Of a stretch of 64,000 nucleotides of DNA, positions 15,894 through 28,718 are shown in pieces. The DNA is from Acidimicrobiaceae bacterium (GTDB lineage: Bacteria > Actinomycetota > Acidimicrobiia > Acidimicrobiales > Aldehydirespiratoraceae), in NCBI GenBank assembly GCA_009837445.1, contig VXTM01000010.1, positions 1 through 64,000 of the forward strand. Reading direction: 5' to 3'. Below the pieces are notes generated by a model. The model made no database searches. It was not told the DNA's origin and saw only the letters and a program-made list of their open reading frames with translations. The position numbers and the translations under genes are program-made. Within the stretch, counting starts at the first letter, position 1, and each line of letters starts with the position of its first letter.

Positions 15894-18158
15894 GTGGATA
15901 GAACCGAATCCTTCCCGCGTCGCCAGGCCCGCACCCGGCGCTTCACCCTGGGCGAGCCCCGGGACTTCCGGGTGTCTGACGACGGCTCCCGGGTGACGTT
16001 CCTGCGCTCATCGGGCCCCGTCGACCCGGCCAACTCGCTATGGGTGCTCGATGTGGTCTCAGGGGTCGAGCGCTTGGTGGCCGATCCCGGCCGGGGTGCT
16101 GCGCACGACGGGGGCGACGTGCCCGCGGCTGAAAGAGCCCGGCGCGAGCGGGTGCGTGAGACCGCCTCCGGCATCGTCTCGTACGACGCCGACGAGGCGC
16201 TGACTGCGGCGGTGTTCGCCCTGGAGGGGCGCCTGTGGCGGGTGAGCCTCGTCGAGGGCGGCCCGCCCGAGCCGCTGGCTGCATCGCCGGGCGCGTTCGA
16301 TCCCCGGCTGTCGCCCGACGGTGTGCTCGTGGCCTACGTGGCCGGGTCGAGCCTGCGAGTAACCGGCGACGCCGCCGGCGACCGGGCTGTCGCCGGGGAG
16401 CCCGGCGAGACGGTGACCTGGGGTTCGGCCGAGTTCGTGGCGGCCGAGGAGATGGGCCGCACCCGGGGGCACTGGTGGTCGCCCGACAGCCGGCGCCTGC
16501 TGGCCGCCCGGGTGGACACGTCGCCGGTGCCGAGCTGGTGGATCGCCGACCCGGCGTCGCCCGACGCCGAGCCCGTCGGGGTCCGCTACCCGGCCGCCGG
16601 CGCGTCCAACGCCGAGGTGCAGCTCGCCGTGTTCGAGGCCGACGCGGGTTCCGGTGCGGGTGTCAGCGATGCCGGTTCCGGTCGCGGCCGGGTGGACGTG
16701 GCCTGGGACGAGAGCGGTTGGGAGTACCTGGCCGGGGTGCGATGGAGCGACGACGGGCTGCTGCTCACCGTCCAGAGCCGTGACCAGCGAACCCTTGGCG
16801 TGCTGCAGGCCGACCCGGACACCGGGGCCTGCCGGCTGCTGCGCAGTGTCACTGACGAGGCCTGGGTTGATCTCGTCCCGGGCGTGCCGAGGCTGGCCGG
16901 TTCCAGGCTGGTCACGGTCGAGAACCGGGAAGCGGATGGTTCTCCTGTCAGAAATCCACCGCAGAGGTGGAAATCTGACAGTAGTTCGGCGCGGACGGCG
17001 GATCAGGTAGCGGCCCGAAGTCTGTGCGTGGACGGCGAGGCCCTCACACCGGAAGACATGCAGGTCCGGGCCGTTCACCACGCCGACGAAGCGGGCGTGG
17101 TCGTCACCGCTTCGGTCGACCCGGCCGAGGTCCATGCCGCTCGGGTCGGGTGGGACGGCACCGTCGAGCGGCTCACCTCCGGGCCGGGGGTGCACGGCGT
17201 GGCCATGAGCGGCGACACAGCCGTCCACATCAGCCGCTCGATGGACCGGCCCGGGCGCCGGTGCGCGGTGCGGTCGGCGCGGCGGAAGGGGCCGGACCTG
17301 CTGATCCAGTCCCATGCAGCGGAGCCCGGCCTGGAGCTGAACGTCGAGATCCTCGAACTCGGACCGCGCCGGCTCGTCTCGGCCCTCGTCCTGCCAGCCG
17401 GGCAAGTCCGCGACGGCGACGCGCCGCTGCCGGTGCTGCTGGACCCTTACGGCGGGCCCCACGCCCAGCGGGTGCAGCGGGCCGAGGCGCTGTTCCACAC
17501 CTCGCAATGGTTCGCCGACCAGGGCTTCGCGGTGCTGGTGGTGGACGGCCGGGGCACGCCGGGCCGGGGTCCGGCCTTCGAGCGGGCCGTGCGGGGCGAT
17601 CTGGCCGGGCCCGTGCTCGAGGACCAGGTCGACGCCTTGAGGGCCGCGGCCGTCATCGAGCCGCGCCTGGACCTGTCGAGGGTGGCCATCCGGGGCTGGT
17701 CCTTCGGTGGGTACCTGGCCGCGCTGGCCGTGCTGCGCCGCCCCGATGTGTTCTCAGTTGCCATCGCCGGGGCGCCGGTTACCGACTGGCGGCTCTACGA
17801 CACCCACTACACCGAGCGCTATCTCGGCCATCCCGCCGAAGAGCCCGGCAACTACGAGCGCACCGACCTGACCCCGCTCGCCTCCGGGCTGGAGCGGCCG
17901 CTGATGCTCATCCACGGCCTGGCCGACGACAACGTGGTGGCGGCCCACACCCTGCGACTGTCACAGGCCCTCACCGAGGCCGGACGGCCCCACACCGTGC
18001 TGCCGCTGAGCGGAGTGACTCACATGACCCCCCAGGAGGAGGTGGCCGAGAACCTGCTGCTCATCCAGCTTCGCTTCCTGCAGGACGCCCTGGGAATGCC
18101 AGTATTGGCGCCCCGAGAGCAGCCGCCGCGAGACAATGAGGGAGCAGCCGGTGAGTGA
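15894..18158 (+). CDS. Prolyl oligopeptidase-family serine peptidase (dipeptidyl peptidase IV type, S9B)
   Basis: A beta-propeller plus alpha/beta-hydrolase peptidase that removes N-terminal dipeptides. With GTG 15894 as start (754 residues; an in-frame TTG at 15858 is the alternative), the catalytic triad is S603 (GWSFGGY), D678 (GLADDNVV) and H710 (GVTHMTP). The DPP-IV double glutamate that binds the substrate amino terminus is E185-E186 in VAAEEMGRTRGHWWSPD, placing it in S9B. No signal peptide is seen, so it is probably cytoplasmic. The propeller is interrupted near residues 351-363 by residues encoded by a palindromic DNA element. Confidence 0.88.
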   Translation: MDRTESFPRRQARTRRFTLGEPRDFRVSDDGSRVTFLRSSGPVDPANSLWVLDVVSGVERLVADPGRGAAHDGGDVPAAERARRERVRETASGIVSYDADEALTAAVFALEGRLWRVSLVEGGPPEPLAASPGAFDPRLSPDGVLVAYVAGSSLRVTGDAAGDRAVAGEPGETVTWGSAEFVAAEEMGRTRGHWWSPDSRRLLAARVDTSPVPSWWIADPASPDAEPVGVRYPAAGASNAEVQLAVFEADAGSGAGVSDAGSGRGRVDVAWDESGWEYLAGVRWSDDGLLLTVQSRDQRTLGVLQADPDTGACRLLRSVTDEAWVDLVPGVPRLAGSRLVTVENREADGSPVRNPPQRWKSDSSSARTADQVAARSLCVDGEALTPEDMQVRAVHHADEAGVVVTASVDPAEVHAARVGWDGTVERLTSGPGVHGVAMSGDTAVHISRSMDRPGRRCAVRSARRKGPDLLIQSHAAEPGLELNVEILELGPRRLVSALVLPAGQVRDGDAPLPVLLDPYGGPHAQRVQRAEALFHTSQWFADQGFAVLVVDGRGTPGRGPAFERAVRGDLAGPVLEDQVDALRAAAVIEPRLDLSRVAIRGWSFGGYLAALAVLRRPDVFSVAIAGAPVTDWRLYDTHYTERYLGHPAEEPGNYERTDLTPLASGLERPLMLIHGLADDNVVAAHTLRLSQALTEAGRPHTVLPLSGVTHMTPQEEVAENLLLIQLRFLQDALGMPVLAPREQPPRDNEGAAGE
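16945..16981. repeat. Palindromic element inside the dipeptidyl peptidase gene
   Basis: CTGTCAG (16945-16951) and TCCACC (16955-16960) are mirrored by GGTGGA (16966-16971) and CTGACAG (16975-16981), with a 5-nt loop and one 3-nt internal mismatch (AAA opposite AAT). The element is in frame and encodes residues around SPVRNPPQRWKSDSS, polar and unlike the surrounding propeller sequence. It looks like a small mobile palindrome inserted into coding DNA; I noticed no second copy in this window. Confidence 0.55.
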
Positions 18159-19368
18159 CACGCAGCCCGAGACGACCGCGGGAGCCGAGGCCGCGGTGGT
18201 GGCCGACCTACGCCGCGAGCGGCTGATGGACGGCCGGGCCTGGGACGACTTCTGCGACACGCTCAAGGCCGCGGGCCGCATCGTGGTGCGCGAGACCCCC
18301 GACGGTGACCCCCAGGACCGGGTGGAGGGGTTCCGTTACGTCACCCGGGTGATGATGATGGCCTCGGGCCGGGCCGTTGAGCGCCGGCTCCCCGGTACGC
18401 GGGCCCGGCCCATCAGGCTGGTCCCGCCGCCGCTTAGGGGCGGGATAGGGGTGCAGTCGCCAAACCAGGACCACATCGTGCAGCCGGTCGACGCCCGCTA
18501 CCGCTACCGGGTCACCGGCACCCTTGGCAGCGCCTACACCCACCTGTCGTCGTGGAGCCCGCCCATCCCCGGCGACGTCGGCGCCTTCAGTGTCGGTCTC
18601 GGAGCCGAGGACCACCTGCCCGGCTTCAACCCGAACATGGCGCTCACCCCCCACAGCTTCGTGCTCGCCGAGTTGGCCGCCGCCGACGGAACGGTGGACT
18701 TCGTCATGTCGGTGGATGACCCCGGCCCCGACGAGGTGTGGTTCCCGATGACCGCCCAGACCCGCGAGCTCATGGGACGGGTGGTCTACGAGGACCGCAG
18801 CTCCCAGTCGCCGCCCCGTCTTGAGATCCGGTGCCTCGACGAGCATCCCCGACCGGCCACGCCGGAGCCCGACGACATGGCCGCCCGCCTGGCGGTCGCG
18901 GGCCAGTTGGTGCTGGGAATGCTCAGCGACTACGGCGGATGGACCCGCGACCTGCTCACCCGCGAGAACCAGCTCGAGTACACCAAGGAATGGTACGAGC
19001 GCATCGGCGGGTCGCCCGACGACCGCCACTTCGAGTTCGGCTACTGGCGGCTTCAGCCCGGCACCGCGCTGGTGGTGGAGTTCGCCGAGCCCCGCTGCCA
19101 GCACTGGAACTTCCAGCTGTGCAATCACTGGATGGAGAACCTGGCCGACTACTTCCGGGGCCGGGGCTACGTGGACAGCGAGAACGCAGCCCGCGAGCCC
19201 GGCGGGCGGGTGCGCATCGTGGTGGCCGAGACCGACCCGGGCGTCGCCAACTGGATCGATCCCGGCGACCGGGACCACGGCGTGATGGGTCTGCGTTTCG
19301 TTCAGCCGGCGACCACCCCCGAGGTGTCAAGCCGCCTGGTCCCGATCGAAAGTCTGGCCGGGGCCTGA
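18151..19368 (+). CDS. DUF1214-like domain protein of unknown function
   Basis: A 405-residue soluble protein. The C-terminal third contains HWNFQLCNHWMENLADY, a run with DSENAA and a Gly-Arg-rich strand, and VVAETDPGVANWIDPGDR, resembling DUF1214/DUF1254-type proteins often encoded in actinobacterial catabolic regions. GTG 18151 is chosen because GAGGGAG (18138-18144) sits 6 nt before it; ATG 18136 lies inside that ribosome site. It overlaps the peptidase gene end by 8 nt. Biochemical role unknown; I see no catalytic motif I can name. Confidence 0.7.
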   Translation: MSDTQPETTAGAEAAVVADLRRERLMDGRAWDDFCDTLKAAGRIVVRETPDGDPQDRVEGFRYVTRVMMMASGRAVERRLPGTRARPIRLVPPPLRGGIGVQSPNQDHIVQPVDARYRYRVTGTLGSAYTHLSSWSPPIPGDVGAFSVGLGAEDHLPGFNPNMALTPHSFVLAELAAADGTVDFVMSVDDPGPDEVWFPMTAQTRELMGRVVYEDRSSQSPPRLEIRCLDEHPRPATPEPDDMAARLAVAGQLVLGMLSDYGGWTRDLLTRENQLEYTKEWYERIGGSPDDRHFEFGYWRLQPGTALVVEFAEPRCQHWNFQLCNHWMENLADYFRGRGYVDSENAAREPGGRVRIVVAETDPGVANWIDPGDRDHGVMGLRFVQPATTPEVSSRLVPIESLAGA

Positions 19369-19506
19369 GCGGCAGACCGGACCCGTCCGGACCTGCGTGA
19401 ATCTATGATCAACGTCGTTCGGGTTGTGCTCGCGTCGATAGTGCGCGAACATGGTCGGTGGCGTCTTCCTTGACCGAGGCCGCGTGGGCATTCGGTCACC
19501 TAGCGG

Positions 19507-19551
19507 GGCGGTGGTGCGCACTACCGGGGGGAGGAGGTGCGCACCACCGCC
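19507..19551. terminator. Perfect 15-bp inverted repeat between convergent genes
   Basis: GGCGGTGGTGCGCAC (19507-19521) and its exact reverse complement (19537-19551) flank a 15-nt loop. It lies in the 253-bp gap between the convergent DUF1214-like and LLM genes, where a bidirectional terminator is expected. There is no T-tract on either side. The perfect symmetry could alternatively make it a protein-binding site. The remainder of the gap (19369-19506, 19552-19621) shows nothing I recognise. Confidence 0.6.
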
Positions 19552-19621
19552 ACCGCACGCGGCGGTCCGCATGAGCCTGTCGCCGATCTTGAGCCCTGAG
19601 CGCGATGGCTGCAGCGACTTC

Positions 19622-20611
19622 CTACAGGCGCCGCCAGCACTCGTCGAACGCATTGATGGTGGCCATCCGGTCGTCCCCCAAGGGCAAGATGTTGATGGAG
19701 TCCACGCCCACCTGCTGCAGTTCAGCGAGTTGAGCCGTTACCCGGTCCCGATTGCCGGCTACGGCCATTCTCTGAACGAAGCTCACCGGCAACAATGAGG
19801 CGGCTTGCGCGGCCTCCTGGAACTCGCCCCCGCTGTAGGACTCACGGACCGCTCTCGTGATCTCGGGATCGAGCCCGACGAGATCACAGTAGATCGGCGC
19901 GGTCTGCGGGAACCAGGCGGCAATCGAGCGGGCTCCGGCGATGGCGGCCGGTTCGTCCTCGTCGATCACGCCGTAGACGAAGATCGCGATGTGCGGACGA
20001 GGTCTCCCTGCCCTGCTCGCGCCCTCGTCGACGCGGTCGAGCGCCCACCGGACCACAGCGGGGTCGAGGCCGCACAACAGGATCACCCCGTCGGCCACCG
20101 CGCCGGCAAGTTCGAGGGTGCGGGGCCCACTGGCTGAGACGAACACGGGCAGATCGGCCCTGGCGTCAAACCTCAGATGAGCATCGACCAGGCGAAACCC
20201 GGGTTCGTCGGCAGTCACGGATTCTCCGGCCAACAGCCTGCGGATCGCGGCGATGGCCGCCTCCAGTTCCGCAAGCCTGGCGGGCTTGGCCCCCAACGCC
20301 ATCAAGGGTCGATCTCCCGCTCCGATGCCCAGGACGGCACGGTCGCCTGCGATCTCGGCGAGCGTCGCCGCCGCTACCGCGGTCAGCGCGGGATGGCGGG
20401 TCACGGGGTTGGTGACCGCAGTCCCCAGTCTGAGTTGAGTGGTTGCTCTCGCAGCGAGGGCGAGGAGTTGGTACGGGTCGCGGGCGTGCAGCGATGACTC
20501 GGTCAGCCACAGGTTGTCGAATCCGGTCGCTTCGATGTGCCTCGCCATGTCGAGAAACTCATCGACTCCGTCGACACCCTGTAGGACTACTCCTCGCCGG
20601 ATGCTCGTCAT
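19622..20611 (-). CDS. LLM class (F420-dependent-type) oxidoreductase
   Basis: A 329-residue luciferase-like barrel protein. Characteristic segments are ARHIEATGFDNLWLTES, LRLGTAVTNPVTRHP and GDRAVLGIGAGDRPL, closest in style to methylene-tetrahydromethanopterin-reductase-like LLM enzymes. Final gene of the six-gene B12 mutase operon: its ATG at 20611 overlaps the CaiB-like stop by 4 nt. It may oxidise or reduce a pathway intermediate. F420 use is inferred from the lineage, not shown by sequence. Confidence 0.87.
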   Translation of the reverse strand: MTSIRRGVVLQGVDGVDEFLDMARHIEATGFDNLWLTESSLHARDPYQLLALAARATTQLRLGTAVTNPVTRHPALTAVAAATLAEIAGDRAVLGIGAGDRPLMALGAKPARLAELEAAIAAIRRLLAGESVTADEPGFRLVDAHLRFDARADLPVFVSASGPRTLELAGAVADGVILLCGLDPAVVRWALDRVDEGASRAGRPRPHIAIFVYGVIDEDEPAAIAGARSIAAWFPQTAPIYCDLVGLDPEITRAVRESYSGGEFQEAAQAASLLPVSFVQRMAVAGNRDRVTAQLAELQQVGVDSINILPLGDDRMATINAFDECWRRL

Positions 20612-21789
20612 GAGTGCGTCAGCCGATCCACGAGGTCGGATGGCACGCCGAACTCATCGAGCACCCCGCGGGTGTGCGCACCGAGCTCGGGGGGTCCGTC
20701 GAGGCGCGGTCGCTCCCCGTCGATGCGGAACGGTGGGTCCATCGCAGCGACGACGCTATCGCCGCCGTCGCTCGGTCTCCGCAAGATGTCGAGCGCCTCG
20801 ACCTGGGGGGACCCGAGGGCACGGAGGAGTGAGCGGACCTGACCGGCTGGGATCCCGGCTGCATCGAAGCGGTCGAGCCAGGCGGCGGCGTCGTCGGAGG
20901 CGAGTACGGCGTTGATCGTGGCGGTCAGCTCGTCCCGGTGCGAGACGCGAGCCGCATTGTCGACGAAGCGGGGATCAGAGAGCAGATCGGGCCGGCCGAG
21001 AACATCGCACAGGGTCTCCCAGAGTTGTTCGTTGCCTGCGCCGGCGAGGACCACGTCTCCGTCGCGGGCGGTGAATGCTCCGTAGGGTGCGAACGTGGGG
21101 GAGTGGCTGCCGAGCAGCGAGGGGCTGCTCCCGGCACTCACGGCGTCGCTGGCGATGGTTGTGAACGACGCCATGGCGAATTCCAGCAGAGACGAGCAGA
21201 CCTGGCTGCCGACCCCGGTCTCCTGCCGCGCCAGATGAGCCGCGAGGAGGGCGGCGACCGTCACGAGACCGGCGCCGATGTCCAGCATCGGCGCCCCGAC
21301 CTTCACGCTGCCCGACTCCGCGGAGCCGGTTACCGACATGAGGCCGCTCTCGGCTTGGACGATGAGGTCGAAACCACCCCGCGTCGCGTCGGGCCCGAGG
21401 TCGCCGAACGCCGAGATCGAAGCGTGGATCAGCCATGGGTGCCGCTGATGCACCGAGTCGTAGTCGAGGCCGTAGCGAGCCATGGATCCTGGCCGGGCGT
21501 TGTAGACCAGGAAGTCGGAGCCCGCGAGCAAGTGCTCCAGGGCCTGGGCACCGTCCGGCTGGCGGAAGTCCAACAGGACGCTCTCCTTGCCGCGGTTGAC
21601 CGATGCGAACAGGTTGGATCCGTCACCAGTGTCGGCCAGCCCCTGACCCCGGTAGGGGTCGCCGCCGGGGGGCGGCTCGATCTTGAGGACTCGGGCGCCC
21701 AGGCCGGCGAGGATCATCGTCATGTAGGACCCAGCCACGTACCGGGTCAGGTCCACGACCGTGGTGCCCGCCAGCGGTTCAGCTACCAC
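20608..21789 (-). CDS. CaiB/BaiF family (class III) CoA-transferase
   Basis: A 393-residue class III CoA-transferase, which moves CoA between carboxylic acids through an aspartyl-CoA intermediate. The catalytic aspartate is D170 in GAPMLDIGAG. The N-terminal nucleotide-like fold carries DLTRYVAGSYMTMILAGLGA and VLKIEPPPGGDPYR, typical of the family. It overlaps the mutase stop by 7 bp and the LLM start by 4 bp. In this operon it would make or recover the CoA ester that the B12 mutase rearranges. Confidence 0.9.
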   Translation of the reverse strand: MVAEPLAGTTVVDLTRYVAGSYMTMILAGLGARVLKIEPPPGGDPYRGQGLADTGDGSNLFASVNRGKESVLLDFRQPDGAQALEHLLAGSDFLVYNARPGSMARYGLDYDSVHQRHPWLIHASISAFGDLGPDATRGGFDLIVQAESGLMSVTGSAESGSVKVGAPMLDIGAGLVTVAALLAAHLARQETGVGSQVCSSLLEFAMASFTTIASDAVSAGSSPSLLGSHSPTFAPYGAFTARDGDVVLAGAGNEQLWETLCDVLGRPDLLSDPRFVDNAARVSHRDELTATINAVLASDDAAAWLDRFDAAGIPAGQVRSLLRALGSPQVEALDILRRPSDGGDSVVAAMDPPFRIDGERPRLDGPPELGAHTRGVLDEFGVPSDLVDRLTHS

Positions 21790-23378
21790 AGCGACGGCTC
21801 GCGATGCGTCCCGAACGCCTTCCGGAAGACATCGGACAACTCGCCGAGAGTGGCCCCGCGGCGTGCAGCTTCGATCAGAGGCTCCATCACGTTCTGGCCC
21901 GACATCGCTGCACGCGACAACGCTGCCAATGCGTCCGAGACGTCGTCACGGCCCGCGAGGTGCCGGTCCAGCCGGGCCAGCTGGCGGTCACGGGCCATCT
22001 CGTCGAGTTCAAAGAGCCGCAGTTCGGTCGCCTCCGCCTCCTCGACGTGGGCGTTGACACCGACTTTCACTGCGGTCAGGTTCGCCACCGCCATTTCGGA
22101 GCGGTATGCGCTCTCTGCAATCCAGCGCTGGGGCACGCCTGCCTCGATCGCCGCAACGGCGCCCCCCAGCCCGTCAATCACACCGATGAGCTCGGTGGCT
22201 CTGGCTTCGAGCTCATCGGTCAGGGCCTCGACGAAGTAGGACCCTGCCAAGGGGTCCACCGTGTCCGCTACACCGGTCTCGTGGGCGACGATCTGCTGGG
22301 TCCGGAGCGCCAGCGTGACCGCTTCGTCGGTCGGGATGGCCATCGCCTCGTCGTAGCCCATCACATGGATCGACTGGGCGCCTCCGAGGACCGCCCCGAG
22401 GCACTGGATCGTGGATCTCACAACATTGTTGAGAGGCTGCTGGGCGGTGAGCGTTGCTCCCGAGCAGCCCGAGAAGAACCGGAGCCGCATCGCTTCCGGG
22501 TTGGTCGCGCCGAACCGGTCGCGGGCGACCTGTGCCCAGAGACGGCGGGCGGCGCGGAGCTTCGCAACCTCTTCGAATATTTCGAGGGTCGTTGCGAAAT
22601 GGAACGAGAATCGCGGCGCGAACGCGTCGAACGACAGCCCCCGATCCACCAGCAGCTCGGCGTACGCGATCGCGTCGCTCATCGTGAAGGCAAGTTCCTG
22701 GACTGTATTGCACCCGGCCTCCCGGGCGTGATAGCCCGTGATCGAGATCGGGTTGAAACGCGGGACTTCGGAGGTGCAGAACTCCACGACGTCGCCCACC
22801 AGCCGCATCGACGGCTCCGGCGGGAAGATGAAGGTCTTGCGGGCCACGAACTCCTTGAGGATGTCGTTCTGCAGGGTGCCGGCCAGTTGCGACCTGTCGG
22901 CGCCCTGGCGCTCGGCCGCGACGAGATAGAAGGCGAGGATGATGGGCGCGGTCGCGTTGATGGTGAAGTTCACCGACAGGTCGCCGAGGGGGAGTCCCTC
23001 GAACAGTTCCGCCATGTCATCGGCGGTATCGATGGCAACACCGACCCGTCCGACCTCCGCCTTCGCGGCGGGAGCGGATGAGTCGAGCCCCAGCTGGGTG
23101 GGAAGGTCGAAAGCCACCGAGAGCGCCGTCTGGCCCTGATCGAGGAGGTAGTGGAATCTCCGGTTCGTGTCCTCGGCCGATCCGTATCCGGCGTACTGGC
23201 GCATCGTCCATAGGCGCTGGCGGTACATCTCGGCGTAGGGGCCGCGGGTGAAGGGCGGCTGTCCCGGAGCACCGATCCGCTCATCGAGGTCTGCCGGGTC
23301 GCCGAGATCGGCCGCCGTGTAGAGCCGGGCGATGGGGATTCCCGAAGCGGTTGTCGGATCCTGGGCGGTCTCGCTCAT
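21783..23378 (-). CDS. B12-dependent acyl-CoA mutase, large (catalytic) subunit
   Basis: A 531-residue TIM-barrel subunit of the methylmalonyl-CoA mutase family, without the B12-binding domain, which is the separate next-upstream gene. Using an offset of 27 to Propionibacterium numbering, the substrate-selecting residues are Y62 (Tyr89) in RQYAGYG and R180 (Arg207) in KEFVARKT, with H217 equivalent to His244. Isobutyryl- and 2-hydroxyisobutyryl-CoA mutases have Phe or Ile and Gln at the first two sites. A substrate with a free carboxylate, such as methylmalonyl- or ethylmalonyl-CoA, is therefore favoured. No epimerase or MeaB chaperone gene is adjacent. Confidence 0.9.
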   Translation of the reverse strand: MSETAQDPTTASGIPIARLYTAADLGDPADLDERIGAPGQPPFTRGPYAEMYRQRLWTMRQYAGYGSAEDTNRRFHYLLDQGQTALSVAFDLPTQLGLDSSAPAAKAEVGRVGVAIDTADDMAELFEGLPLGDLSVNFTINATAPIILAFYLVAAERQGADRSQLAGTLQNDILKEFVARKTFIFPPEPSMRLVGDVVEFCTSEVPRFNPISITGYHAREAGCNTVQELAFTMSDAIAYAELLVDRGLSFDAFAPRFSFHFATTLEIFEEVAKLRAARRLWAQVARDRFGATNPEAMRLRFFSGCSGATLTAQQPLNNVVRSTIQCLGAVLGGAQSIHVMGYDEAMAIPTDEAVTLALRTQQIVAHETGVADTVDPLAGSYFVEALTDELEARATELIGVIDGLGGAVAAIEAGVPQRWIAESAYRSEMAVANLTAVKVGVNAHVEEAEATELRLFELDEMARDRQLARLDRHLAGRDDVSDALAALSRAAMSGQNVMEPLIEAARRGATLGELSDVFRKAFGTHREPSLW

Positions 23379-23788
23379 GGCCCCTCCTGCCGGTTGTCGG
23401 CCAGAGCGGTGATGCGCTTCACGACGTCGGCGATGGCCGTGCCAGCCGGAAAGACTTCGTCGACGCCGATCTCGAGCAGGCGGGCGACATCGCGGGGCGG
23501 CACGATCCCGCCCACGACCACCGGCACGTGCTCGAGGCGGTGGAGGGAGCGTTCCGCGATCAGATCGGAGGCGATCGGGAGATGCGCCCCGGAGAGGATC
23601 GAGGCCCCGATCACGTCGACGTCTTCCTCCAGTGCCACCGTCATCATCTCGGTCGGGGTGGATCGAAGGCCGAGATAGATGACTTCACAGCCGGCGTCGC
23701 GGAGAGCGAACGACACGACCTTCGCCCCACGATCGTGGCCGTCGAGACCTGGCTTCGCGATCAGGATGCGTCGCCGGCGGGTAGTCAC
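23375..23788 (-). CDS. B12-binding small subunit of the acyl-CoA mutase
   Basis: A 137-residue cobalamin-binding Rossmann domain. The signature DxHxxG is D-G-H-D-R-G in AKPGLDGHDRGAKVV, whose histidine replaces the dimethylbenzimidazole ligand of cobalt. SILSGAH and VVVGGIVPP are the nucleotide-tail loops. GTG 23788 overlaps the M20 gene stop as GTGA, and the stop overlaps the mutase ATG as ATGA. Translation of the two mutase subunits is thus coupled, fitting a heteromeric enzyme. Confidence 0.9.
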   Translation of the reverse strand: MTTRRRRILIAKPGLDGHDRGAKVVSFALRDAGCEVIYLGLRSTPTEMMTVALEEDVDVIGASILSGAHLPIASDLIAERSLHRLEHVPVVVGGIVPPRDVARLLEIGVDEVFPAGTAIADVVKRITALADNRQEGP

Positions 23789-24978
23789 TCGGGTGCTGCC
23801 AGGGCCAACGCCGCAAAGACTGCATACACCTGCGTTGCCTCCTTGATGTCGGCCACCGGGAGGTTCTCGTCGGCACAGTACACGGGCTCGCCGCCAGGGC
23901 CGAAGATGACGGTGGGGATGTCCCCGCCGAAGCTCGCGGTATCGCCGAGCCAGCCGGCCGCCATCAGCTCTGGTTCCCGACCACGGACCTGGCGGACGGC
24001 TTCGACCATGGTTTGCACAACAGCCGAGTCTGGATCGGCCAGATACGGTGCCTTCACGTCCACCAGCTCGACCTCGGCGCGGAAGCGCCCGTCGCGGTGC
24101 GTGGCATTGTCGAGACATCGATCAATCTCGGCACGGACGGTCTCGATCGATACGCCGGGCTGGGGCCGGCAGTCGACCCGGATCACGCACTCATCGGGAA
24201 TCATCGACGGGCCCCCCGGAGGGAGTCCGCCATAGACCCGGCCGGGAGCCATCATGGTCTCTGTCCCGAAGCGCGCCGCGACCTCGGGGCTCAGCGCGGG
24301 CTCGAGCCTCGAGGCATCCAGCTCGAGAATGGCCAGTGCCGCCAGCGTGTTGGCGTTGATGGCGTGGTGCTTGTGGCACGTATGGGCGGACCGGCCCTGT
24401 GTGGTGACGTCGAAGTAGTAGCGGCCGCGGTGGCCGAGGAAGATCTCGTTGTCGGACAGTTCGCCCAGCACACACAGATCGGCATGATGGCGCTCGAAGT
24501 ACCGGATACTCCCCGTCTGGTCCCCCATGTGGTCGCTGACCGCTGCCATCGCGAGGGTGCCCCTGAGCGGCAGGTCGCACTCGCGGACGGCCTCGATGGC
24601 GGTGATCTGGCATGCGAGGGCGGCCTTCATGTCCATGATGCCGTGACCGAAGACGCGACCGTCGATGAGGTCGCCCGAGAAGGGTTCGGCTGCGGACCAA
24701 CCGATCGAGACCGGCTTGGTGTCCATGTGGCCGGTCATGACGACGCGGGGACCGTCACCGAAGGAGATCTCGCCGATGGCATTGGGGCGGTCGGGGAGCA
24801 CCGGTTGCAACTCGACGTTGGAGAAGCCGCGGTCGCGCATCGACGCGGCCAGGAAGTCGGCAAGATCCCCCTCGGCACCGAGGATGCTGGGTATGCGACA
24901 GACCTGCCGCGTCAGGTCGATTGCTCGTTGAGTGTCGACGGCTGCAAGAACACGGGCCGCAACCTCTGATGGCTCCAT
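23785..24978 (-). CDS. M20-family amidohydrolase with non-standard metal ligands
   Basis: A 397-residue M20/ArgE-DapE-like protein starting at ATG 24978. The first metal segment is normal (H84-M-D86 in MTGHMDT; D116 in GHGIMDMK; E173 in LGELSD). The usual catalytic Glu-Glu pair is replaced by D149-H150 (AVSDHMGD). The C-terminal metal histidine region reads VYC368ADENLP, with Cys where His is expected. It probably still binds metals in an altered geometry. The M20 protein at 31218 in the same window keeps the canonical set. In this operon it may release an acyl or amino acid moiety before CoA activation. Confidence 0.85.
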   Translation of the reverse strand: MEPSEVAARVLAAVDTQRAIDLTRQVCRIPSILGAEGDLADFLAASMRDRGFSNVELQPVLPDRPNAIGEISFGDGPRVVMTGHMDTKPVSIGWSAAEPFSGDLIDGRVFGHGIMDMKAALACQITAIEAVRECDLPLRGTLAMAAVSDHMGDQTGSIRYFERHHADLCVLGELSDNEIFLGHRGRYYFDVTTQGRSAHTCHKHHAINANTLAALAILELDASRLEPALSPEVAARFGTETMMAPGRVYGGLPPGGPSMIPDECVIRVDCRPQPGVSIETVRAEIDRCLDNATHRDGRFRAEVELVDVKAPYLADPDSAVVQTMVEAVRQVRGREPELMAAGWLGDTASFGGDIPTVIFGPGGEPVYCADENLPVADIKEATQVYAVFAALALAAPE

Positions 24979-24991
24979 CCTGAATCGCTCC

Positions 24992-25990
24992 CTATCCGCT
25001 CGGCCGCTCGGCCTCACCTGGACTCGCGGGACACATGATGCTTGTGGCAGGAACCGGCGCAGAGTCGAGCGTGAGCGTCGCGTCACGCATGACGCAGTCG
25101 AGATGCGCTCGCGCCGCGACGGTTCCTCCGTAGGCGATCGAGTTGCCGAGAGCGATGTGGGCAGTCCCCAGCGAGGACTCAGTCTCCATCGCGACCGCGC
25201 ACACATGACCAGCGGGGTTGAGTCCCAGGGAGACCTCGGCGAAGTTGGTCATCAACTCGTCATCGCAGCGCTCGAGCATGCCGGTGAGGCGATGGCTCTC
25301 TGGTCCCTCGGCGCCGACGAGGCGCCCTTCGTCGAAGGTGAGGACTACCGGGTCGGGCAGCGGGCCCATCCCCATGAACAACAGATCAGCATCGATGACG
25401 GCGACGCCGTGGGTGGTGCCCTCCAATGGAGCGGTGCCCGCCTCGATGTCAGGGGGCGCCATGTAGGACCCGGCCGTCCGGCAGATTCCGTGAAGCACCC
25501 GGCCGGGCCGTCCGGATACGGAGCCGCGGAGATCGGTGCCGGCAGGGGTGGTGAGTCGAAACTCCGACGCCTGAGTCCAGAGTTCGCCGATCTGTTCGGC
25601 GCGCGCCCGGAGTTCGTCAAAATCGACTGACAGCGGGCCGTCCACCCGCAGCGTGTCCAACGTGATCCCCGGCATGGCCAGATAGCGGACGCCCACCGCG
25701 TTGGCGTCGCGGCGGGCCTCGTTCGAGCCGATGAAGATGGAGGTCAGCTCGATAACGGCGTCGCTCTGCGCCATCGTTCGGGCGACACCGGGGGCGACTT
25801 CCGCTCCCGGGATGTCCAGCGGGGCCATCTCCAGTGTCGACGCGACTGCCGACCGCGCCTCGATCCCGGAGCGCAACAGGTCCGTGACCCGGCGGTCGCT
25901 GTCGGTGTCGGTCAGCAGCACCACGCGCTCGCCCGCTTGGACGCCGAGGCACCGGTCGAGCACATTGGCCACCGCGGCGGACACGTCCAT
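24992..25990 (-). CDS. M29/NicX-like metalloprotein (aminopeptidase T or dihydroxypyridine dioxygenase family)
   Basis: A 332-residue protein of the family shared by M29 aminopeptidases and NicX-type 2,5-dihydroxypyridine dioxygenases. Diagnostic segments are TNFAEVSLGLNP, GTAHIALGNSIAYGG and AHLDCVMRD; the last supplies an H296-x-D298 metal pair. First gene of the six-gene mutase operon, 13 bp before the M20 gene. Peptidase and ring-cleaving dioxygenase functions cannot be separated by inspection, and the choice would change the reading of the whole pathway. Confidence 0.75.
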   Translation of the reverse strand: MDVSAAVANVLDRCLGVQAGERVVLLTDTDSDRRVTDLLRSGIEARSAVASTLEMAPLDIPGAEVAPGVARTMAQSDAVIELTSIFIGSNEARRDANAVGVRYLAMPGITLDTLRVDGPLSVDFDELRARAEQIGELWTQASEFRLTTPAGTDLRGSVSGRPGRVLHGICRTAGSYMAPPDIEAGTAPLEGTTHGVAVIDADLLFMGMGPLPDPVVLTFDEGRLVGAEGPESHRLTGMLERCDDELMTNFAEVSLGLNPAGHVCAVAMETESSLGTAHIALGNSIAYGGTVAARAHLDCVMRDATLTLDSAPVPATSIMCPASPGEAERPSG

Positions 25991-26071
25991 GCGCCGCGAT
26001 GGTAGTCCGCCGGCTGCCAGCCGGACGCGTCGGCAGATCAGCCGGCGATCCCGCCTTCAGTTCCCGGCAGG

Positions 26072-27127
26072 TCAGGTCACAACGGTTAGTTCAGTGGCCT
26101 TGACTGACGCCCAGATGTTGAGACCCGGATGCAGTTCGAGTTCGTCGGCGGAGCGGCGAGTGACATCTGCCCTCACTTTGATCGGTCCGCCCAGATGTAC
26201 ACGGGCGCGCTCCCCGTCGATGTCGACACGCTCCAGTTCGGCCTGCCAGGCGTTGCGGGCGCTGCCGGCGGGCCGGTCACGGTGCAGGGTCACGGCGTGT
26301 GCCGGGAAGGTGACGTAGACGGGTCCTTCGGCCTCGGCGGCCACGGCGAGCACCAGACCGGCCTGGGTGGTGACTGATGTGCCACGGGCCAGGCCCGGGA
26401 CCACGTTCGCGCCGAGGAAGGTGGCCGCCCACTCGCACCCGGGCCGGGCTGTCACCTCCGCGACGGAGCCCCGGCTGGCCACCTCGCCGCTGTCGAGCAC
26501 TACCAGCTGGCGCGCCAGCGTGGCCACATCGACCGGGTCGTGGGTGATCAGCAGCGTGTGGCGGGCCGGTGACTCGCCGATGAGCGCCCGCAGGCCGGCC
26601 CGGCCCGAGGAGTCCACCGAGGCCAGCGGCTCGTCGACGATCAGGACCTCGGGCTCGGGGGCCAGGGCCCGGGCGATGGCCACTCGCTGGCGCTGCCCGC
26701 CCGACAGCGCCGCCGGGCGCTTGGACCACACCCCGGAGTCCACTCCGACGCGTTCGAGCAGCTCGCCGGCCCGCCGCCGGGCCGCAGTCCGGTCGGTGCC
26801 CGTCCGGCGCAGGCCGAATGCCACGTTGTCGACCACCCGGAGGTGACCGAAGAGCCGGAGATCCTGGAACACCATGCCCACCCTGCGCTGGTGGGCCGGC
26901 AGGTAGACGCCGGCTGCCGGGTCGTCGACCACCGTGCCGGCGATGGCCAGGCGGCCGCCGGCCAGGCGATCGAGCCCGGCCACGGCCCTGCCCAGCGTCG
27001 TCTTGCCCGTGCCGTTGGCGCCGACCACTGCGGTCACACCCTCGCCGATCTCCAGGCCGTCGACCCGCAGCGTCCAGCCCGATCGGACAACCCGTCCGTC
27101 AAGCGCGACGGTCATCGGGGCATCCAC
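26072..27127 (-). CDS. modC: Molybdate ABC transporter ATP-binding protein
   Basis: A 351-residue ATPase with P-loop GANGTGKTT, signature LSGGQRQRVAIARAL, Walker B VLIVDEPLASVD and switch histidine in LLITHDP. The C-terminal 110 residues form a TOBE-type domain with the repeat-like VDIDGERARVHLGG strand pattern, as in ModC. Its start overlaps the permease stop by 16 bp. It powers oxyanion uptake for molybdenum-cofactor enzymes. Tungstate or sulfate specificity cannot be excluded by sequence alone. Confidence 0.88.
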   Translation of the reverse strand: MDAPMTVALDGRVVRSGWTLRVDGLEIGEGVTAVVGANGTGKTTLGRAVAGLDRLAGGRLAIAGTVVDDPAAGVYLPAHQRRVGMVFQDLRLFGHLRVVDNVAFGLRRTGTDRTAARRRAGELLERVGVDSGVWSKRPAALSGGQRQRVAIARALAPEPEVLIVDEPLASVDSSGRAGLRALIGESPARHTLLITHDPVDVATLARQLVVLDSGEVASRGSVAEVTARPGCEWAATFLGANVVPGLARGTSVTTQAGLVLAVAAEAEGPVYVTFPAHAVTLHRDRPAGSARNAWQAELERVDIDGERARVHLGGPIKVRADVTRRSADELELHPGLNIWASVKATELTVVT

Positions 27128-27936
27128 CGGTCACGCAGGGTCACCAGCACCGCCAGCGCCACCGCCATCAGGACCAGGCTGATGGCCACCGCCGCCTCCG
27201 GATTGCGCTCCAGGGCTAGGTAGGTCTCCAGCGGCAGCGTGCGGGTGCGGCCCGGGAAGTTGCCGGCGAAGGTGAGCGTGGCTCCGAACTCCCCGACGGC
27301 CCGGGCCCACGCCAGGGCGGTTCCGGCGGCCAGCGCGGGCCGGATCGTGGGCAGCGTTACATGCAGCAGGGTGCTCCAGGCGCCTGCTCCGAGGGTGGCG
27401 GCCGCCTCGTCGAGGTCGTCGCCGGCCTGGCGCAGGGCGGCCTCGACGGTCACCACGAAGAACGGGAGGGCCACGAATGCGGCCGCTACCACGGCTCCGG
27501 CGGTGGTGAACGGCAGGCTCACACCGAACCACGAGTCGAGCCACTGGCCGACCAGGCCCCGCCGTCCCAGCGCGAACAGCAGGGCGGTGCCGGCCACCAC
27601 CGGCGGGAGCACCATGGGCAGCATCACCAGCGCCCGCACGACCCTTCCGAAGCGCAGGCGGCGCCGGGCCAGCACGAACGCCAGAGGCAGACCCAGCACC
27701 ACGCACGCCGCGGTGGCCACAAGGCTGACGATCAGCGACACCCGCAGCGCCTCCAACACCTCGGACTCGCCCAGCACGGTGGGCAGCGCCGACCACGGCG
27801 CCCGCTGCAGCAGCCCGACGATGGGCAGGGCCAGCAGGCCCAGGGCCACGAAACCCACGATTGTCAGAGCGGCCGGCGGCCGGCTCACTCCCGGATCGGG
27901 GCCGGGTGCGGTACGGGCGCCGCCTGGAGCGCTCAT
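27112..27936 (-). CDS. modB: Molybdate ABC transporter permease
   Basis: A 274-residue inner-membrane permease with about six membrane segments and the EAA loop DDLDEAAATLGAGAWSTLLHVTLPTIRP split around residues 175-200. AWARAVGEFGATLTFAGNFPGRTRTLPL near residue 220 is the family signature of ModB/CysT permeases. Starts inside the end of modA (4-nt overlap), consistent with a modABC operon. Confidence 0.9.
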   Translation of the reverse strand: MSAPGGARTAPGPDPGVSRPPAALTIVGFVALGLLALPIVGLLQRAPWSALPTVLGESEVLEALRVSLIVSLVATAACVVLGLPLAFVLARRRLRFGRVVRALVMLPMVLPPVVAGTALLFALGRRGLVGQWLDSWFGVSLPFTTAGAVVAAAFVALPFFVVTVEAALRQAGDDLDEAAATLGAGAWSTLLHVTLPTIRPALAAGTALAWARAVGEFGATLTFAGNFPGRTRTLPLETYLALERNPEAAVAISLVLMAVALAVLVTLRDRWMPR

Positions 27937-28718
27937 GGCGGTCCGAACCCGTGGGCCAGCAGAGCCTCGGCACCGGCGCCGCCGGTCTCGGTGAAGGCAT
28001 CCATCACGGCCTGCACCGCCGGCGAGGGCTCAGCCGACGCCGAGGCGATGAAGTAGCGGTTGGCATGGCCGTCCAACTCCGGAGCGTCGACCCTGGACAG
28101 TCCCACAACCGCGGCATCAGTGTCGTAGACCAGCCCCGCGTCGAGCTCTCCCAGCGACAGCTTGGCAGCCAGCGCACGGACGCTCAGCTCGAGGGTGTCC
28201 ACCGAGGGAACGATCCCGGCTTCATCGAGGGCCCGCCGGGCCAGCGTGCCGCAAGGGACCTCGGGGGCGCACAAGCCCACCAGCAAGTCCCGGCGAGCCA
28301 GATCCGCGAGCCCGGCGACGCCACCCGGATTGCCGGGCGCGGTGGCCAGCACGACCGTGTTGGTGGCGATCACCACTGGCTTCCCCCTGATCGATCCGTC
28401 GGCGGTGGCTCGGTCCATGGTGGCTGCATCGGCGGTGATCAGCACATCGGCGCCGGCTCCGGCCGAGAGCTGGGCCACCAGCGTGGAGCTGCCCGAGAGG
28501 ATCGCGGTGACATTGGGATCGCTGGAGGCCACGGCCTCGACCACATCGGTGAGCGACGAGGCCGCCATCACCACCACCTCACGGTCGTGTCGGGTCTCGC
28601 TGCCCCCGCTGCCGCTGCAGCTCACCCCGAGCAGCAGCGCGGCGGTCACGGCGATAGCGGCCTGCCGCCGAGTAGCCCGCCCCCGGCGGTGGTCGCCGTC
28701 GACGCTGCGCCCCGCCAT
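27933..28718 (-). CDS. modA: Molybdate ABC transporter substrate-binding lipoprotein
   Basis: A 261-residue binding protein. The hydrophobic N-terminus ends in a lipobox at C34 (LLGVSC). The mature protein begins with VVVMAASSLTDVVEAV, the ModA motif whose serines contact the oxyanion, followed by STLVAQLSAGAGADVLITAD. First gene of modABC, divergent from mscS across about 100 bp. No molybdenum-cofactor riboswitch was recognised upstream. Confidence 0.9.
   Translation of the reverse strand: MAGRSVDGDHRRGRATRRQAAIAVTAALLLGVSCSGSGGSETRHDREVVVMAASSLTDVVEAVASSDPNVTAILSGSSTLVAQLSAGAGADVLITADAATMDRATADGSIRGKPVVIATNTVVLATAPGNPGGVAGLADLARRDLLVGLCAPEVPCGTLARRALDEAGIVPSVDTLELSVRALAAKLSLGELDAGLVYDTDAAVVGLSRVDAPELDGHANRYFIASASAEPSPAVQAVMDAFTETGGAGAEALLAHGFGPP

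Follow-up and report, generated by a model that had tools for sequence, protein, structure and literature searches.

In the window, by which we mean the whole analysed stretch of 64,000 nucleotides, we found an operon of six genes at nucleotides 19622-25990, all on the minus strand and all with open frames. Its best explanation is that it encodes the putative core of a catabolic pathway whose B12-dependent acyl-CoA mutase is of a new type; judged from its sequence, the mutase belongs to a seemingly undescribed type. The reading we favour, tentatively and at somewhat less than even probability, is that the pathway breaks down the pyrimidine of thiamine, or a close relative of it, and that the mutase turns (acyl)aminomethylmalonyl-CoA into aspartyl-CoA.

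The first gene of the operon (25990-24992) encodes a putative NicX/M29-like metalloprotein of 332 amino acids. It is followed by M20a (24978-23785; 397 amino acids; PF01546 and PF07687), an ArgE/DapE-like hydrolase with a non-canonical active site, and by the two subunits of the mutase, the B12-binding small subunit (23788-23375; 137 amino acids, GTG start; PF02310) and the large subunit of the new subclade (23378-21783; 531 amino acids; PF01642). A CaiB/BaiF class III CoA-transferase (21789-20608; 393 amino acids, GTG start; PF02515) and an LLM-class oxidoreductase, probably F420-dependent (20611-19622; 329 amino acids; PF00296), complete the operon. The first gene and M20a are separated by 13 bp (24979-24991), and the remaining four junctions, in order, are overlaps of 4, 4, 7, and 4 nucleotides. 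The same-strand layout with one 13-bp gap and overlaps of 4-7 nucleotides given in the initial annotation was therefore borne out by the coordinates and the open frames; its gene families agreed with Pfam for five genes, and the NicX/M29 kinship of the first was recovered by PDB profile and Foldseek. The promoter and terminator scan of nucleotides 19200-26400 gave no signal above chance, and no riboswitch matched in the window at the Rfam gathering threshold.

The large subunit of the mutase matched PF01642 with 653.6 bits (cut-off 22.1) and TIGR00641 with 661 bits (cut-off 304), and the B12 subunit matched PF02310 with 83 bits (cut-off 32.1) and TIGR00640 with 142 bits (cut-off 57). The DxHxxG motif, which we take to be the cobalamin motif, was found within GLDGHDRG and was invariant in the 14 aligned B12 subunits. 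In the tree, 22 mutases formed a single clade with 100% SH-aLRT, apart from the references of methylmalonyl-CoA mutase (MCM), ethylmalonyl-CoA mutase (ECM), and 2-hydroxyisobutyryl-CoA mutase. The 22 were those of the window, of 13 loci from the first relatives' search (80 of 546 relatives taken in), and of 8 loci from the second; L131, L132, L135, L136, L140, and L141 duplicated counted loci and were dropped. The tree was built in quick mode, its flagged long branches include ECM, HcmA, and L002 of the window's own genome, and the joining of the clade with HcmA is not relied on.

The substitutions F287H, H328F, Q330G, T365V, and N366M were present in all 22 clade mutases, and these letters in 0 of the 74 others. 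The MCM residues R207, H244, Q197, and E370 were retained, R207 in 22 of 22, and position 89 was occupied by Tyr in 12 mutases, including that of the window, and by Phe in 10. Arg207 with Tyr89 is presumably carboxylate-binding in MCM. The ECM substrate carries one extra carbon on the "methyl" of the MCM substrate; since the five ECMs also alter part of the same pocket (G at 328, V at 331, L at 365, and P at 366 in 5/5), the clade substrate is probably a substituted malonyl-CoA. We rejected an ordinary propionate operon in view of the clade, the pocket residues, and the canonical copies of MCM, MeaB, and epimerase that the genome carries separately. An ECM ortholog was ruled out by the residues (not 328G/331V/365L/366P), by the tree, and by the lack of any Ccr over cut-off in the window's own genome, and an HcmA ortholog by the tree and by Arg207 in place of Gln.

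Among the matches listed, every other locus that carries this type of mutase (21 of 21) had all six genes together, and this recurrence indicates that the operon is more than a chance assembly. The hosts were Acidimicrobiia, Frankia/Parafrankia, and Acrocarpospora, and the order M20a-B12-Mut-CaiB-(M20b)-LLM was kept in the relatives; some of the 67 other loci are short contigs, which limits what missing neighbours there mean. The initial annotation had named, as evidence against itself, a mutase inside the ordinary MCM clade with neighbours not conserved in relatives; the window's mutase was found outside the MCM references and its neighbours are conserved. The idea that the six genes form a complete route was not supported, since among the matches listed 17 of the 21 relatives' loci add a second ArgE/DapE-like M20 hydrolase (M20b) and 11 add an epimerase-like gene, neither of which lies beside the window's operon.

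The first gene had no Pfam or NCBIfam match at E 0.001, and its ortholog was present in all 21 relatives' loci among the matches listed. Against PDB profiles it matched NicX (7cn3; E 4.6e-8), and PF02073 gave sub-threshold matches in the first-gene proteins of two relatives. Foldseek with the predicted model, which is of low confidence (pLDDT 58) and was used for fold kinship only, returned NicX (E 9.2e-13) followed by the M29 aminopeptidases PepS, AmpS, and AmpT. As to the iron-ligand set of NicX, one His-x-Asp aligned in the 7cn3 profile alignment. The profile, PF02073, and Foldseek matches support a putative metalloprotein of the NicX/M29 fold.

In M20a (predicted model pLDDT 79), the Glu-Glu pair of DapE was replaced by His-Met in all 14 aligned sequences, and the last metal His by Cys, Ala, or Ser wherever a row of this alignment extends that far. 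We take this pair and the final His to be the catalytic and metal residues of M20 enzymes; M20a may not be an amidase. The M20b proteins keep both, as EEG[LV]GN and HT, in the 7 of 17 that were aligned, and a search run without a positive control gave no M20b match in the window's own genome. The two epimerase-like proteins tested, of 11, scored 101 and 86 bits against TIGR03081 (cut-off 115) and are thus relatives of methylmalonyl-CoA epimerase rather than assigned members. This gene sits inside the relatives' clusters, unlike in the window's operon.

The CaiB protein matched PF02515 with 351.4 bits, and its top NCBIfam model was succinate-glutarate CoA-transferase with 243 bits, below the cut-off of 750. 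The LLM protein matched PF00296 with 183.3 bits; its top models were the F420-dependent methylene-tetrahydromethanopterin reductases (Mer), with 191 and 162 bits against missed cut-offs of 276 and 349, and its best PDB match was also Mer (1z69). As the best scores are to Mer-type F420 reductases, below their cut-offs, reduction is at least as likely as the final oxidation that had been assigned to this enzyme.

The relatives' islands contained varying sets of TenA-family proteins, which are thiaminase-II-like, thiamine- or NMT1-type transporters, and a homologue of the thiamine-binding protein. Also found there were a GntR-type regulator, dehydrogenases for alcohols and aldehydes, amidohydrolases of the TRZ/ATZ and creatininase types, an amidase, and, below cut-off, a caprolactamase-like HyuA (a lactam-type hydrolase). 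Of the 17 genomes that fall outside the clade of the window, 8 had a TenA gene within 18 kb of the mutase, at 3.7-17.9 kb (G039, G106, G142, G288, G257, G305, G399, and Frankia EI5c), and G305 and G399 had further copies 50-60 kb away. Acrocarpospora (L044) was a clear negative for TenA near the module; in eight others (G380, G385, G423, G430, G467, G634, Parafrankia L047, and L038), the module contig is without TenA and breaks off no more than 15 kb from the mutase in at least one direction. The thiaminase II model TIGR04306 (cut-off 130 bits) was passed by four of the six TenA proteins tested (157, 134, 140, and 163 bits) and missed by those of L185 (104 bits) and L138 (63 bits). Thiamine- or NMT1-type transport genes were found in six loci forming two separate sets. 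The thiamine-type binding protein of L038 scored 221 bits against TIGR01254 (cut-off 93) and the L040 copy was 74% identical to it; L128, L129, and L139 contained NMT1 and Thiamine_BP genes, and L138 a Thiamine_BP gene with a partial NMT1 match. Weaker Thiamine_BP homologues (23-34 bits) occurred elsewhere in nine of 18 genomes. Both the TenA and the NMT1 family have other substrates as well.

The window's own clade consists of the window and four loci (G000, G001, G007, G009, and G013). In this clade no TenA exceeded 51 bits, the contig of the operon had none at all, and PF01910 gave no match. Its operon has neither M20b nor the epimerase nor the thiamine genes alongside, so that it may here take up a later intermediate of the pathway. 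The window's own genome had no AHY2 ortholog (best 40%). Elsewhere it contained a canonical MCM beside MeaB, plus a canonical epimerase; the absence of epimerase and MeaB noted earlier thus stands for the window's locus and fails genome-wide.

Because the partner genes are conserved and thiamine-handling genes are adjacent in some relatives, the operon may belong to a route that breaks down a portion of vitamin B1 or some comparable ring compound. In such a route, the LLM enzyme would reduce the ring and the hydrolases would open it to (N-acetyl)aminomethylmalonate, which CaiB would convert to its CoA thioester, plausibly from succinyl-CoA. The epimerase would provide the correct isomer for the mutase, the mutase would shift the carbonyl of the thioester onto the carbon that bears the nitrogen, giving aspart-1-yl-CoA, and an M20 enzyme would remove the acyl group. 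We infer this substrate, order of steps, and chemistry. In its most specific form, the proposal would have a new B12 mutase convert 2-(acyl)aminomethylmalonyl-CoA to aspart-1-yl-CoA and so salvage carbon in a bacterial pathway dedicated to mineralising the vitamin B1 pyrimidine; in this form it is unlikely.

The same module and new mutase type could instead serve other cyclic amides, lactams, or N-heterocycles, with CaiB and the mutase acting on other 2-substituted malonyl- or succinyl-CoA and the thiamine-type genes as mere island neighbours. We regard this as a serious, though second, possibility: it is consistent with the creatininase and TRZ/ATZ amidohydrolases, the amidase, and the HyuA-like protein of the islands, with the lack of thiamine genes near the operon in the window's clade, and with Acrocarpospora, where a homologue of B6-type ABC permeases scored below cut-off and TenA is missing from the vicinity. 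It is opposed by the TenA genes within 18 kb in 8 of the 17 genomes, contig ends limiting 8 of the other 9, and by the fact that two separate groups of loci carry thiamine- or NMT1-type transport. The earlier generic reading, in which an amide or heterocycle releases an acid that is then activated and rearranged before the LLM enzyme oxidises it in a last step, matches the gene families but is very improbable, being not substrate-specific and at odds with the Mer-type scores, which suggest reduction over a last oxidation.

An ordinary MCM could also act in a pathway that yields methylmalonate, such as oxidative thymine breakdown, where CaiB would load methylmalonate from succinyl-CoA and the epimerase and mutase would regenerate succinyl-CoA. 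R207 in 22/22, Tyr or Phe at 89, the epimerase-like gene in 11/21 loci, and the sub-cut-off succinate-glutarate model of CaiB all agree with this reading, but it is made improbable by the separation of the clade from the MCM references, by F287H, H328F, Q330G, and N366M (22/22 vs 0/74), and by the canonical MCM beside MeaB and canonical epimerase that the genome already has. Least probable, and by our estimate very unlikely, is thiamine salvage or recycling of thiamine breakdown products with the mutase module as a passenger. The families TenA, NMT1, and Thiamine_BP are of the salvage type, but salvage requires neither a CoA-transferase nor a B12 mutase; at the Rfam gathering threshold seven island loci gave two tRNAs only and no TPP riboswitch, and the module persists in the window's clade without nearby thiamine genes. 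Degradation of thiamine's pyrimidine, or of a compound close to it, remains our preferred reading.

The established B12 acyl-CoA mutase types are few, and the literature consulted (PMC2847961; PMC12345177; PMC6759758) names methylmalonyl, ethylmalonyl, isobutyryl, and 2-hydroxyisobutyryl. In the part of the literature covered by our search, no published pathway with this six-gene set was found, in agreement with the initial annotation, and the step that decides the fate of the vitamin B1 pyrimidine ring when bacteria consume the vitamin was not described in the open literature searched. Pivalyl is a further B12 acyl-CoA mutase type. With its rebuilt active site, its fixed partner genes, and hosts that include named isolates (Frankia, Parafrankia, and Acrocarpospora), this new enzyme lends itself to direct testing. 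Should the thiamine link be true, these would be genes for the bacterial fate of the vitamin B1 pyrimidine ring, which would matter for how thiamine and HMP are turned over in sea water, sponges, and soil.

Among known systems, the 2,5-dihydroxypyridine dioxygenase NicX and the M29 aminopeptidases share fold-level similarity with the first gene, which reaches NicX by profile only (E 4.6e-8) and without a Pfam match over cut-off. Genes of the TenA thiaminase II and thiamine/NMT1 ABC families are present in several relatives' islands, whereas the window's clade is without strong TenA and without Thiamine_BP. The window's mutase shares with MCM (two-subunit and fused) the family profile and Arg207, His244, Gln197, and Glu370, with two-subunit MCMs the separate B12 subunit, and, in 11 of 21 relatives' loci of its clade, an epimerase-like partner gene; it differs in its separate clade, in the letters H/F/G/V/M at 287/328/330/365/366, and in its CaiB and hydrolase operon with no MeaB on the contig. 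Like the ethylmalonyl-CoA mutase MeaA, it retains Tyr89 and Arg207 and is altered at 328, 331, 365, and 366, but the letters there are G/V/L/P in ECM, which retains Q330 and F287, and F/C,N/V/M in the clade, and it is 39% identical to the Ccr-linked ECM. In the PDB the large subunit matched HcmA, the 2-hydroxyisobutyryl-CoA mutase (4r3u), best, with 515 bits, and we take HcmAB to have a separate B12 subunit as the window's mutase does. At position 207 isobutyryl-CoA mutase presumably has Gln in place of Arg. HcmA itself contains Ile89, Gln207 instead of the carboxylate Arg, and the ordinary H328, Q330, and N366, whereas Arg207 was found in all 22 mutases of the clade.

In our study, the six-gene operon at 19622-25990 was found entirely on the minus strand and in open frames, as the initial annotation had placed it, with a gap of 13 bp between the NicX-like and M20 genes and overlaps of 4, 4, 7, and 4 nt at the remaining junctions. 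Pfam returned the families which that annotation had named (M20, B12-binding, MM_CoA_mutase, CoA_transf_3, and Bac_luciferase), and the six-gene observation itself was confirmed. At E 0.001, neither Pfam nor NCBIfam returned a match for the first gene. The sole convincing PDB match of a profile built from 14 of its relatives was NicX (7cn3; E 4.6e-8), and Foldseek with a low-confidence model of the protein placed NicX at the top, followed by M29 aminopeptidases. A 410-aa protein without Pfam or NCBIfam match adjoins the operon (18136-19368, plus strand), and counterparts accompany the operon in close relatives (e.g., L036 and L037). Molybdate-type ABC genes were found just upstream (26072-28718, minus strand); the ModC-like ATPase was recognized by NCBIfam below the cut-off, and the permease and the binding protein by sequence reading only.

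A pattern scan of GTDB genome contigs gave 546 mutase relatives, and tblastn with the six operon proteins on the 80 kept of these 546 showed the complete set in 13 loci (L035-L047), where the mutase was 63-98% identical. The other 67 kept loci (mutase at most 57%), some on short contigs, showed no NicX, M20, CaiB, or LLM match above 60 bits among the matches listed. Eight additional distinct loci held all six genes; six further fetched stretches were duplicates, and locus L139 was completed by L171. Joint conservation of the six genes, a check proposed in the initial annotation, was thus found in all 21 loci besides the window, with the first M20 gene (M20a) of L137 truncated at the contig end. 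The hosts span Acidimicrobiia to Frankia EI5c, Parafrankia EUN1f, and Acrocarpospora. M20a, B12, Mut, CaiB, and LLM kept this order, and the position of NicX varied. The conserved module is well supported. With strict E limits, whole-genome searches at the class level (E 1e-230, 395 genomes) detected the mutase type in 10 genomes and those at the phylum level (E 1e-210, 396 genomes) in 2, with the window's own genome counted in both.

A branch with 100% SH-aLRT support set the 22 mutases apart from the fused methylmalonyl-CoA mutases (MCMs; L001 of the own genome, human, P. shermanii, and M. extorquens), from ethylmalonyl-CoA mutase (ECM), and from two-subunit MCM-like sequences. The tree was built in quick mode with long branches flagged, and no sister group is claimed. 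The phylogeny called for at the outset gave a well-supported new subclade, apart from the MCM and ECM references. R207, H244, Y243, Q197, and E370 (P. shermanii numbering) were retained in all 22, and position 89 was Tyr in 12 sequences and Phe in the other 10. The substitutions F287H, H328F, Q330G, T365V, and N366M were fixed in 22/22, and the changed letters occurred in none of 74 compared sequences.

The relatives' clusters contained further genes. A second M20 gene (M20b) was present between CaiB and LLM in 17 of 21 loci, the exceptions being the closest relatives of the window (L035, L036, L037, and L039). M20b retained the Glu-Glu of DapE and the last His ligand (7 of 17 sequences aligned); M20a had His-Met at the Glu-Glu positions (14 aligned sequences), and its last His ligand was replaced by Cys, Ala, or Ser in those of the 14 rows reaching it. 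Only M20a was kept beside the operon in the window's clade. An epimerase-like gene was found by tblastn in 11 of 21 loci, and the two proteins tested scored 101 and 86 bits against TIGR03081, both below the cut-off of 115. A TRZ/ATZ amidohydrolase at least 66% identical to that of L129 (AHY2) occurred in 11 of 21 loci, L129 itself counted, followed by a GntR-type regulator in seven (two at a mere 31-34% identity), one Zn-alcohol dehydrogenase common to six (at least 65%), an AurF-like protein in five, and creatininase in four. The conserved AurF-like protein is of diiron oxygenase type (L128:17590-18540; also L138, L038, L040, and L139). An acyl-CoA carboxyltransferase gene (PccB/MmdA-like) was present beside AHY2 in L041 (18010-19572), L130, L133, and L134.

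The own genome contained a canonical MCM with adjoining MeaB (contig C7), a canonical epimerase (C4), and a second mutase (C29, locus L002) with Gln207, Phe89, Asp366, and another MeaB nearby; by residues, the C29 mutase is of isobutyryl- or 2-hydroxyisobutyryl-type. The search of this genome found no MeaB match on the window's contig (C9) and, in a search run without positive control, no M20b. The best AHY2 relative was 40% identical. TRZ/ATZ-type amidohydrolase matches at 23 places suggest a broad N-heterocycle or amide metabolism.

The TenA family (PF03070) was searched in 18 module-carrying genomes and 6 genomes behind loci, two of which yielded hits identical to those of G001 and G013, so that the window's clade was represented by 5 genomes and the remainder by 17. 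In 8 of these 17, TenA was located at a distance of 3.7-17.9 kb from the mutase: G039, G106 (three hits), G142, G288 (two), G257, G305, G399, and Frankia EI5c, whose genome has a single PF03070 hit. We estimate that chance would place TenA within 18 kb in about 0.5-3.5% of genomes, assuming 1-3 hits of at least 60 bits per 3-7 Mb genome, with thresholds picked after the data were seen and some genomes close kin. Against a thiamine link, TenA in Acrocarpospora was on other contigs only, despite a long module contig. Eight genomes without TenA on the module contig (G380, G385, G423, G430, G467, G634, Parafrankia, and L038) are limited by contigs that stop no more than 15 kb from the mutase on one or both sides. 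In the window's clade, TenA was near the mutase in 0/5, and the only matches elsewhere were weak, none exceeding 51 bits. Four TenA proteins out of six tested scored above the 130-bit cut-off for thiaminase II (157, 134, 140, and 163), and two fell short of it (L185, 104; L138, 63). Three paralogues flank one module in G106 (C31:32942, 53291, and 62497), which suggests divergent TenA functions within the island. In L184 (2292-4974), a caprolactamase-alpha-like HyuA, below its cut-off, adjoins a TenA passing the thiaminase II cut-off. The thiamine-type binding protein of L038 scored 221 bits against TIGR01254 (cut-off 93.4), and that of L040 was 74% identical to it. NMT1-type binding proteins were present in L128, L129, and L139 (62-72% identity), with a partial match in L138. 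Thiamine_BP homologues of 60-70 bits adjoin the module in G257, G106, G288, and G142. Among the 18 genomes examined, nine have lower-scoring homologues (23-34 bits) elsewhere.

We infer a route for the thiamine pyrimidine (HMP), in which its CH2OH would be oxidized to a carboxylate, C4 deaminated, the C5=C6 bond reduced, and the ring opened by hydrolysis, with C2 and its methyl lost as acetate. The remainder would be (N-acetyl)aminomethylmalonate, from which CaiB, the epimerase, and an MCM-type migration of CO-SCoA to the carbon bearing the nitrogen would give an aspart-1-yl-CoA. This single scheme would give roles to the CoA-transferase, epimerase, carboxylate Arg, changed pocket, ArgE-like M20, deaminase-type amidohydrolases, dehydrogenases, and TenA. 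The nearest rival is that the same module acts on a different ring amide. Our confidence in the HMP assignment is moderate to low, and lowest for the reduced clade to which the window belongs. Among open-licence PMC papers retrieved for the types of mutase, for the gene combination, and for the breakdown of thiamine, no title or abstract opening was recognizable as describing this set or a gene cluster for thiamine-pyrimidine breakdown.

The substrate of ECM, ethylmalonyl-CoA, has one carbon more on what is the methyl group in methylmalonyl-CoA. Five sequences were taken as ECM, namely L170, beside crotonyl-CoA carboxylase/reductase, and four plasmid-borne ones sharing 66-87% identity with it, two of which carry the annotation meaA. 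All five have G, V, L, and P at positions 328, 331, 365, and 366. Since ECM and the new type are both altered in the pocket, the new type probably acts on a malonyl-CoA with an extra group on the side chain.
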